Shown here: one piece after another, positions 2,037-33,683 of the stretch
How positions within the stretch are numbered: position 1 is the stretch's first letter
Layout: each line of letters opens with the position of its first letter
From: Desulfitobacterium metallireducens DSM 15288
GTDB lineage: Bacteria > Bacillota > Desulfitobacteriia > Desulfitobacteriales > Desulfitobacteriaceae
Assembly: GCF_000231405.2 (NCBI RefSeq)
Contig: NZ_CP007032.1
Coordinates: 2,294,001 to 2,358,000, forward strand
Reading direction: 5' to 3'
DNA length: 64,000 bases
The notes under the pieces: model-generated
Seen by the model: the letters and a program-made list of their open reading frames with translations, nothing else
The model's database searches: none
Told to the model about the DNA's origin: nothing
Translations under genes and position numbers: made by a program

Positions 2037-2232
2037 ACCAGCAAGCGTAGCTTCTTGCACAGGAGTGAACGATTTCGCGAAGGGGCGATAAGGCAAACAA
2101 AGCTTCCGTAGCTTAGCGTAGCCATTGGTTCACTTCAGGTATTGCCCAGAGGTTTGGCGTAGCTGCTACGGAAGCGAGTGCGCCAGCCCTGGAGCGCTGA
2201 GTGAACGGATGGGCAAGAAGCTACACGACCCA
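2037..2232 (+). repeat. Family A structured repeat, copy 1
   Basis: About 195 nt that recur at 33487-33683. A 12-bp outer helix (2047-2058 with 2213-2224) encloses an 11-bp helix (2102-2112 with 2165-2175). It also has a CCAG/CTGG hairpin and an AGTGAAC heptamer present twice (2064-2070 and 2200-2206), either copy of which could pair with GTTCACT at 2128-2134. Several helix positions differ from copy 2 on both sides so that pairing is kept. It lies between the aldolase and mtaD genes, 70 nt after the aldolase stop. No protein is encoded. It may be a structured RNA, a small folded mobile element, or both. Confidence 0.8.
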
Positions 2233-2301
2233 GACCTTTTCATAATCTGATGGTGCTACGTAGTAGTATAAGATTCTACCCTAAGACTGGCAAAGTAATG
2301 C

Positions 2302-2940
2302 TTAATCTCTCTGCCCATACTGGTTTATATAATCGGATCGCAGCCCGCGCTTATCTTCGTCACTTAATTGAACCGGAGTTCCCAGCAGTCGCGACATAAT
2401 ATGGATTTGCGCGCTCTTCTCCACAATCTGGCAGACTTTAAGGGCCTCTTCAACAGAGCGCCCCACTCCGACCAAACCATGATTAGCTAGAAACACAGCA
2501 TTTTTATCAGCGAGTGATCGCACGGTAGCCTCTGCTAATTCTTCAGTGCCCGCCCGCTGGTAATCCGCGACGCTGACTTCTTCACCCACAATCATTGCGA
2601 AATCCTCGACTAAACCCGGAAGAGGAACATGGGCAACGGCATGAGCTGTCGCATAAATGGAATGGGTATGAACGATTCCTTTTACCTCTTGGCGTTGTGA
2701 GTATATGGCTCGATGGAGTTGTTCCTCAGAAGAAGGTTTACGATAGCCTTCAAGGACAACCCCTTGCATATTCATCAGCACTAAATCTTCTTCTTTTAGG
2801 GCGAGATAATCCATTCCACTGGGGGTAATCCAAAACCCATCTCGTGAATCATCCCAAGCCGAGATATTTCCCCAGGTTCCAGCCACTAAGCCAGTCTGGA
2901 TAATTTCTCGGCCAATCTCAATAATTTTTGTTTTTAGCAT
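2302..2940 (-). CDS. Class II aldolase (FucA-like), probable methylthioribulose/deoxyribulose-1-phosphate aldolase
   Basis: A 212-residue zinc-dependent class II aldolase/adducin-family enzyme. Visible marks are GTWGNIS near residue 22, PSSEEQLH with the catalytic glutamate, GIVHTHSIYAT with two metal histidines, and LANHGLVGVG with the third. The family includes fuculose-1-phosphate aldolase and methylthioribulose-1-phosphate dehydratase (MtnB). Because it directly follows mtnA (stop and start adjoin) and no mtnC/mtnD/mtnX is present, I infer an aldolase of the dihydroxyacetone-phosphate shunt. That reaction would split methylthioribulose- or 5-deoxyribulose-1-phosphate to dihydroxyacetone phosphate and an aldehyde. 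MtnB cannot be excluded. Confidence 0.8.
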   Translation of the reverse strand: MLKTKIIEIGREIIQTGLVAGTWGNISAWDDSRDGFWITPSGMDYLALKEEDLVLMNMQGVVLEGYRKPSSEEQLHRAIYSQRQEVKGIVHTHSIYATAHAVAHVPLPGLVEDFAMIVGEEVSVADYQRAGTEELAEATVRSLADKNAVFLANHGLVGVGRSVEEALKVCQIVEKSAQIHIMSRLLGTPVQLSDEDKRGLRSDYINQYGQRD

Positions 2941-25049: not shown

Positions 25050-25207
25050 TTGCAAGCAAAGTTACGTTACAGACACTCGGACGGACGCTCGCAGACCAAG
25101 CTAAGGGCATAACTGCTAGATGCAAGTTACGGGATTTCCTCCCAATTCGCCGTGCAGATCTGCTATGCCGTCCATGGTGCAGTCTGCACTAGGTACGTCC
25201 TGTGACC
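25050..25207 (+). repeat. Family B dispersed repeat, copy 1
   Basis: About 158 nt starting 17 nt after the gpr stop. Blocks shared with 33189-33329 include CTCGCAGACCAAG, TAACTGCT, CCTCCCAATTCGCC, GTCCATGG and CGTCCTGTGAC. CTTGCA near the 5' end can pair with TGCAAG near 25110. This copy carries an 18-nt insertion with the palindrome GCAGATCTGC after the AATTCGCC block. No coding potential. Confidence 0.75.
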
Positions 25208-33188: not shown

Positions 33189-33329
33189 TTGCAAGCAGAG
33201 TTGCGTTACAGACGCTCGGACGTACACTCGCAGACCAAGTTAGGGGCTTAACTGCTGTATGCAAGCTGTGGAATACCCTCCCAATTCGCCGTCCATGGCT
33301 CACGGTCAGCGAGTCACGTCCTGTGACTC
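33189..33329 (+). repeat. Family B dispersed repeat, copy 2
   Basis: About 141 nt matching 25050-25207 but without the 18-nt palindromic insertion. A 7-bp hairpin, GAGTCAC, loop GTCCT, GTGACTC (33311-33329), ends it; in copy 1 the same loop is kept while the arms differ but still pair in part. It lies 34 nt upstream of the hslO ATG, in opposite orientation to hslO. Confidence 0.75.
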
Positions 33330-33486
33330 GTCCCACTATATGAAGAGCCGTTCTGCCCAAGCTTGGTGCCTGCTCGCCTTGAGTCCTTACTTACTGTAAT
33401 CGCAACTCGCTTCGAAGAATACTCGGGTACAGCTTCGCAAAATACTAGGGCAGGAAACTCAAAAAGCTTACCTAAAAATTCAAATT
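33330..33486. other. Spacer between repeats B2 and A2
   Basis: About 155 nt with no gene. Short inverted sequences occur (CTGTA with TACAG about 33415-33434, CTTCGAAG at 33410-33417). It has no second copy in the window. It could be part of a composite element with its neighbours. Confidence 0.4.
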
Positions 33487-33683
33487 TGACCTTGTAAGCG
33501 TAGCTTCTCACACAGGAGTGAACGATTTCGCGGAGGGGCGGTAGGGGACACGACGCTTCCGTGGGATAGCGTGCCACTTGGTTCACTTGCAGAAGGCAGA
33601 AGGGTTTGGCTAAGCTCCCATGGAAGCGAGTGTGCCAGCCCTGGAGCGCTAAGTGAACGGATGTGTGAGAAGCTACACGACCC
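33487..33683 (+). repeat. Family A structured repeat, copy 2
   Basis: Same element as 2037-2232. The outer helix is a perfect 15 bp here (33500-33514 with 33662-33676). The inner helix is 12 pairs (33555-33566 with 33616-33627) with one G-U. Conserved blocks include AAGCGTAGCTTCT, TTGGTTCACTT, GCCAGCCCTGGAGCGCT and AGAAGCTACACGACCCA. It lies 42 nt beyond the thiN stop, opposite in orientation to thiN, as copy 1 is to the aldolase gene. Confidence 0.8.

Follow-up and report, generated by a model that had tools for sequence, protein, structure and literature searches.

The window, the whole 64,000-nucleotide stretch of the Desulfitobacterium metallireducens DSM 15288 genome analysed here, contains two copies of a small folded element and sits within a single 3,176,073-base contig. 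Both copies lie on the plus strand, antisense to both of their neighbouring genes. The first-pass annotation had placed them at 33487-33683 and 2037-2232, which a covariance model confirmed, delimiting folded cores at 33500-33676 and 2047-2224; the same search of the window returned no third copy. The parts of the two copies are as follows.

33487-33683, plus strand: copy 1, consisting of the core and short GACC...GACCC tails; its best relatives elsewhere in the genome are 87% identical
33500-33676, plus strand: folded core of copy 1; covariance-model match, 158.8 bits with R2
33500-33514, plus strand: copy 1, 5' arm of helix P1, partner of 33662-33676
33518-33523, plus strand: copy 1, GTGAAC on the 5' side of the conserved internal loop with the tandem G.A
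33529-33539, plus strand: copy 1, 5' arm of helices P2a/P2 (CGC...GGGGC), partner of 33638-33648
33545-33551, plus strand: copy 1, 5' arm of helix P3, partner of 33630-33636
33555-33565, plus strand: copy 1, 5' arm of helix P4, partner of 33617-33627
33573-33610, plus strand: copy 1, closing helix P5 and conserved apical loop (GCCA...GGTTCAC...GGTTTGGC)
33617-33627, plus strand: copy 1, 3' arm of helix P4, partner of 33555-33565
33630-33636, plus strand: copy 1, 3' arm of helix P3, partner of 33545-33551
33638-33648, plus strand: copy 1, 3' arm of helices P2/P2a (GCCCT...GCG), inside a block first annotated as unpaired
33653-33658, plus strand: copy 1, GTGAAC on the 3' side of the same internal loop, directly repeating the 5' half
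33662-33676, plus strand: copy 1, 3' arm of helix P1, partner of 33500-33514
2037-2232, plus strand: copy 2
2047-2224, plus strand: folded core of copy 2; 185.1 bits with R2
2233-2310, plus strand: right tail of copy 2 (CTTTTCATAATCTGATGGTGCTACG...TTCTACCCTAA)

The right tail of copy 2 had no further match among the loci of the element in its own genome and, judged by eye, resembles a diverged version of the tail hairpin found beside Desulfosporosinus and Desulfitobacterium copies. Directly 5' of copy 1 lies a second repeat family (33200-33420), which recurs beside two other copies of the element (76% over 242 nt at L003 and 85% over 93 nt at L002) and has one further occurrence in the window, at 25061-25156 (83%). 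A scan around the window copies revealed no promoter- or terminator-like sequence above chance. Long open frames overlap the element at two inspected loci (L114 and L118), and a 123-aa frame runs across copy 1. We rejected such frames as genes of the element: at L114 the frame of the downstream host gene merely extends back across it. No linked open reading frame was found with stand-alone copies.

Each window copy folds on its own far beyond chance, with RNA minimum free energies of -92.7 and -85.4 kcal/mol (z = -6.4 and -4.1 against dinucleotide shuffles). Comparison of the two copies also bore out the four two-sided changes on which the first-pass annotation had built its case, two in the outer and two in the inner helix (G-C versus A-T and G-C versus C-G), together with one G-U pair. 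The outer-helix change was real with its labels exchanged, TCAC/GTGA belonging to the copy at 33487 and TTGC/GCAA to that at 2037. The block GCCAGCCCTGGAGCGCT, previously called unpaired, instead contains the 3' sides of P2 and P3. Extending the search to the genome and its relatives gave many more copies and much stronger covariation, so that the element is also far from the two-copy family originally described.

Thirty copies from the genome and its relatives yielded, with RNAalifold, one long interrupted hairpin made up of P1 (15 pairs), a GTGAAC/GTGAAC internal loop able to form a tandem G.A mismatch, P2a/P2, P3, P4 (11 pairs), P5 and an apical loop. In a plain MAFFT alignment of these copies, the same sequences from which the structure was derived, two-sided changes occurred at 39 of the 55 pairs compared with 19.3 ± 2.1 in shuffles (0/500), and 94.2% of pairing cells could pair, compared with 82.2% after shuffling and 32-41% with slid partners. 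A larger alignment of 72 distinct copies from four lineages, biased towards the structure by having been fitted to the covariance model and including a few secondary or reverse-strand matches, raised the two-sided changes to 53 of 55 pairs, with 91.4% pairing cells (65.0% shuffled, 30-39% with slid partners) and a covariation score of 0.671 versus 0.195 ± 0.006 for shuffled alignments. We give these figures without a probability because the shuffling control leaves shared ancestry in. P4 was the strongest covarying helix of the 30-copy alignment (two-sided changes at 10 of 11 pairs), while in P1 such changes affected 13 of 15 pairs among the 30 copies and all 15 among the 72. The stems of different lineages are unrelated in sequence, P1 and P4 having been rewritten, and for unrelated stems to share the same predicted fold is more than ancestry alone would give. 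We considered and dropped a pseudoknot that would pair the apical GGTTCAC with one or other GTGAAC, as the changes there were inconsistent.

The two strands are not equivalent. In all 30 copies the plus strand had the lower RNA minimum free energy (mean, -86.4 versus -72.1 kcal/mol for the complement), the plus-strand alignment of these copies folded better than its complement, and 68 of 69 single copies from four groups behaved likewise with RNA and DNA parameters alike. G.T pairs outnumbered A.C pairs in the genome itself (41:9), in other Desulfitobacteriaceae-like genomes (63:16) and in the Dehalobacter-side family (27:8); the ratio in heliobacteria (16:33, with 13 of the A.C pairs coming from the poorly aligned P6) did not favour the plus strand. 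Given this consistent preference, one strand is most likely functional, either as RNA or as single-stranded DNA, and the data favour neither form. Some letters are fixed as well: those of the tandem G.A are 96-100% conserved over four lineages, and the apical-loop GGTTnAC and GGTT (in RNA form, GGUUnAC...AGGUUU) are 93-97% conserved over all copies. This pattern suggests a factor that would read the apical loop and the tandem G.A and elsewhere require pairing only. Covariation in four lineages, a steady strand preference and conserved internal- and apical-loop letters thus support the selection on folding that had been proposed from the two window copies.

The genome of D. metallireducens itself holds the element at 35 places by BLAST, with 29 covariance-model matches, about 20 of them strong. 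Full copies are ~190 nt, the core of roughly 180 nt forming one hairpin from end to end, and the remainder are composite or truncated. Copies are intergenic and show no orientation bias to their neighbours (15 -,- versus 13 +,+). Among 74 genomes of the order, 54 gave covariance-model matches; for the class, which consists of anaerobic bacteria, the figure was 58 of 83, including Desulfitobacterium-like, Desulfosporosinus, Paradesulfitobacterium, Dehalobacter-like and heliobacterial genomes, many of which carry tens of copies. Outside the class, two genomes had at least 5 copies each and three had single weaker matches; those in G255 and G349, which by eye have no apical motif, could be chance matches. 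When GTDB contigs were scanned for the motif, hits came only from Desulfosporosinus, Heliobacterium, Heliorestis, Paradesulfitobacterium, Gracilibacter and one Clostridiales MAG, and the scan of viral contigs gave no match.

Rfam yielded nothing at gathering thresholds, and at lax ones (E<=1 for copy 1 with Rfam 15, E<=0.1 for other lineages) there was likewise no match to any family, HEARO, omegaRNA-like and IS605-linked RNAs included. Openly accessible literature on Desulfitobacterium, Desulfosporosinus and heliobacterial repeats contained no description of the family, which may be described elsewhere; PMC3733652 mentions none of Desulfitobacterium, Desulfosporosinus or heliobacteria. The family is thus apparently previously undescribed. 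The initial proposal, either a structured RNA or a folded mobile element not described before, holds in that the family is outside Rfam and mobile, and the evidence fits RNA and folded mobile DNA alike.

We assessed mobility by searching the flanks of eight copies in sister genomes. One site was cleanly empty in D. hippei (G020:3217726), a second was empty in D. hippei and internally deleted in G023 (G020:2191415), one copy was missing in G023, G030 and G063 (G020:2306640) and another was missing in G004 (G012:2782676); other flank-searched sites were also occupied in one species and empty in a sister. P. ferrireducens carries six copies at unrelated loci that are 97-99.6% identical across about 240-268 bp, plus two further copies in which, by eye, similar outer tails flank a core in the opposite orientation; tails and core thus seem separable. 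At L168 in D. hippei, ~108 nt of nested hairpin repeats (CGAAGACACTGTCTTCGCACG... and variants) sit inside one loop of the element and are missing at the orthologous site in two relatives. Together, these empty orthologous sites, near-identical dispersed copies and nested insertions show that the element is mobile. Element ends differ between lineages, and no constant target-site duplication was found at sites with clean empty counterparts, where tails were mosaic; a duplication of ATC is possible at one site (L154).

Three of five tested heliobacterial sites were occupied in both H. chlorum and H. mobile and the other two hold remnants, one partly deleted and one, in H. chlorum, a bare P1 hairpin probably left after deletion of the core between AGCGA repeats equivalent to the directly repeated GTGAAC halves; in heliobacteria the family therefore looks old and quiet. 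Old copies decay by deletion. We considered and rejected insertion into the loops of pre-existing host hairpins with P1 borrowed from the host, since empty sites in Desulfosporosinus and in Desulfitobacterium-like genomes lack P1; the bare P1 hairpin of H. chlorum is better read as a core deletion between short direct repeats than as such an insertion. Own-genome copies are at most 87% identical to copy 1, which is in keeping with the family no longer moving there.

Copies are often joined to other repeats. Composites in the genome of D. metallireducens (among L016, L018, L021, L025, L026 and L027) have an apical loop into which a module rich in hairpins, ACTTGTCCATGGATGGACTGATGTCGCGGGTGCATGGACGCACAGGAGCGACG, is built; in some of them the 5' or 3' arm of P1 contains another, TATAGGAGACTTGGCTTAGAGTTGAGGTACGAAACTCAAGCC..., giving hairpins within hairpins. 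In the Desulfitobacterium-like G012 (L149-L153, L155, L156 and L158), a larger repeat with a GGTTGGAAACGTCCTGTTTCCAACC core lies 5' of many copies; several of these repeats end like the P1 3' arm and are perhaps a version of the element with a giant inserted domain. P. ferrireducens copies (L203-L210) are surrounded, in many cases on either side, by short repeats arranged in arrays (CTGACTCCTGACTCCTGAATTCTGA is one example), which look as though they were what the element targets. At L211 and L212 (G022) and L213 (G078), at least two near-identical elements form tandem arrays with a spacing of about 240-260 nt, the whole unit being repeated.

No mobilising enzyme was found among the two candidates considered, Y1/RAYT and IS1182 transposases, nor was any match to a general transposon end or any insertion sequence sharing a terminal inverted repeat with it. 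An origin as a REPIN or REP element mobilised by a Y1 (RAYT) transposase would fit a palindromic, intergenic, high-copy repeat that often occurs in mosaics and whose own-genome copies end in GTAG/CTAC. We give this reading hardly any credence and consider it largely refuted: the Y1 transposase domain (PF01797) had no match in the genome of D. metallireducens or in the element-carrying G016, the Y1 loci examined in relatives have neither the element fold nor the tail hairpin, a REPIN is shorter than this core, and heliobacteria and Paradesulfitobacterium do not keep the GTAG end. The IS1182 family came into view through Dehalobacter-like G040, where the element lies between the left end and the transposase gene of a 2.03-kb insertion sequence (L314:4150-6179), upstream of that gene; all three examined copies of this insertion sequence are near-identical and carry the element, and a copy also lies near related IS1182 loci in G038, G056 and G058. 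A MITE derived from or mobilised by IS1182 is nevertheless very unlikely, given that the G040 transposase has no match in the genome of D. metallireducens, 70%-identical relatives in Desulfosporosinus lack the element, and stand-alone copies bear no IS1182 terminal sequence by eye. The element sits inside the insertion sequence and not at its ends, and carriers were found only in Dehalobacter-side genomes, for which reason we rejected IS1182 as a general autonomous partner; most likely it captured a copy as a passenger, which explains the association better.

Two further readings concern the fold itself. A functional RNA would be expected to covary, to keep its loop unchanged and to favour one strand, all of which is seen here, and the copies could be paralogues of a cellular structured RNA, either an sRNA or a cis-regulatory element, with a host function. 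We think this unlikely, as sites are empty in sister species, copies have no preferred orientation to flanking genes, and those in the window are antisense to both neighbours with no promoter- or terminator-like sequence beyond chance. Alternatively, the arms might co-vary by mutation alone. Template-switch (palindrome-correction) mutation at replication is an established mechanism for quasi-palindromes, and it would keep arms paired even if the fold were not selected; copies from heliobacteria and elsewhere whose P1 stems are wholly different do still pair almost perfectly. This explanation is improbable, however: correction should erase mismatches, yet the tandem G.A and internal loops persist, the process is strand-symmetric whereas nearly every copy favours one strand, and the conserved apical loop is left unexplained.

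The reading we favour, with moderate confidence, is that of a mobile element, broadly MITE-like, that is non-autonomous, interspersed in high copy number and able to fold its plus strand into a long interrupted hairpin. Compensatory change has preserved the fold in four lineages, one of the two strands is favoured, and sites are gained and lost; retention of the fold while the letters change points to RNA or single-strand-DNA machinery that recognises the fold. We infer that the folded strand itself would be the recognised form, either as single-stranded DNA at replication or as RNA, and that a host- or parasite-encoded factor may read the invariant apical loop and tandem G.A in trans, the stems needing only to pair. 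No Y1/RAYT transposase remaining in the D. metallireducens genome is the mobilising enzyme. Copies would afterwards decay through internal deletion and accept further hairpin modules in their loops. A bolder version, possible but doubtful, makes the folded strand the propagating form, with its loop read by a class-wide machine: a hairpin retro- or single-stranded-DNA element, mobilised unlike IS/MITE, REPIN or group II elements and accepting nested hairpin modules in its loops.

Like MITEs, BOX and ERIC elements, the repeat falls within 100-300 bp, is intergenic and mobile, occurs in many dispersed copies and forms an end-to-end stem-loop. BOX elements of Streptococcus pneumoniae, which are viewed as parasitic and whose sites have been compared between strains (PMC3049150), are similarly small, modular and high-copy, vary in their internal modules and are predicted to fold stably as RNA, but no sequence or Rfam relation was found, and the present element differs in its class-wide compensated fold and invariant apical loop. 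ERIC/IRU, RUP, NEMIS/Correia and other MITEs (PMC2229807) share a size of ~100-200 bp, dispersal, end-to-end stem-loops that their transcripts would form, and internal insertions. Most of them have defined terminal inverted repeats and target duplications, in contrast to the element described here, in which the terminal stem varies freely between lineages and no constant duplication was seen. BIMEs and REPINs (PMC2817692, PMC3733652) also build mosaic arrays of palindromic units; here there is no RAYT link, the fold is larger and internally conserved, and a constant GTAG tag is found only in own-genome or Desulfitobacterium-type copies. HEARO and other element-linked Rfam RNAs likewise tie a structured sequence to mobility, but the present element has no Rfam match and its stand-alone copies have no linked open reading frame. 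The best reading is therefore a class-wide non-autonomous structured repeat of the BOX/ERIC/BIME kind, new and with unusually deep conservation of its fold.

Judgements of small interspersed repeats usually rest on their sequence, and the importance of their fold has rarely been shown. The family described here supplies hundreds of copies from across a class; compensatory change has put almost all of its base pairs to the test, one strand is preferred, and the loop does not vary. With such material, what it is that recognises a bacterial repeat, as RNA or as single-stranded DNA, becomes directly testable. The element also adds a family to the known covariance models, and its polymorphic sites in Desulfosporosinus and Paradesulfitobacterium make a clear system for study.
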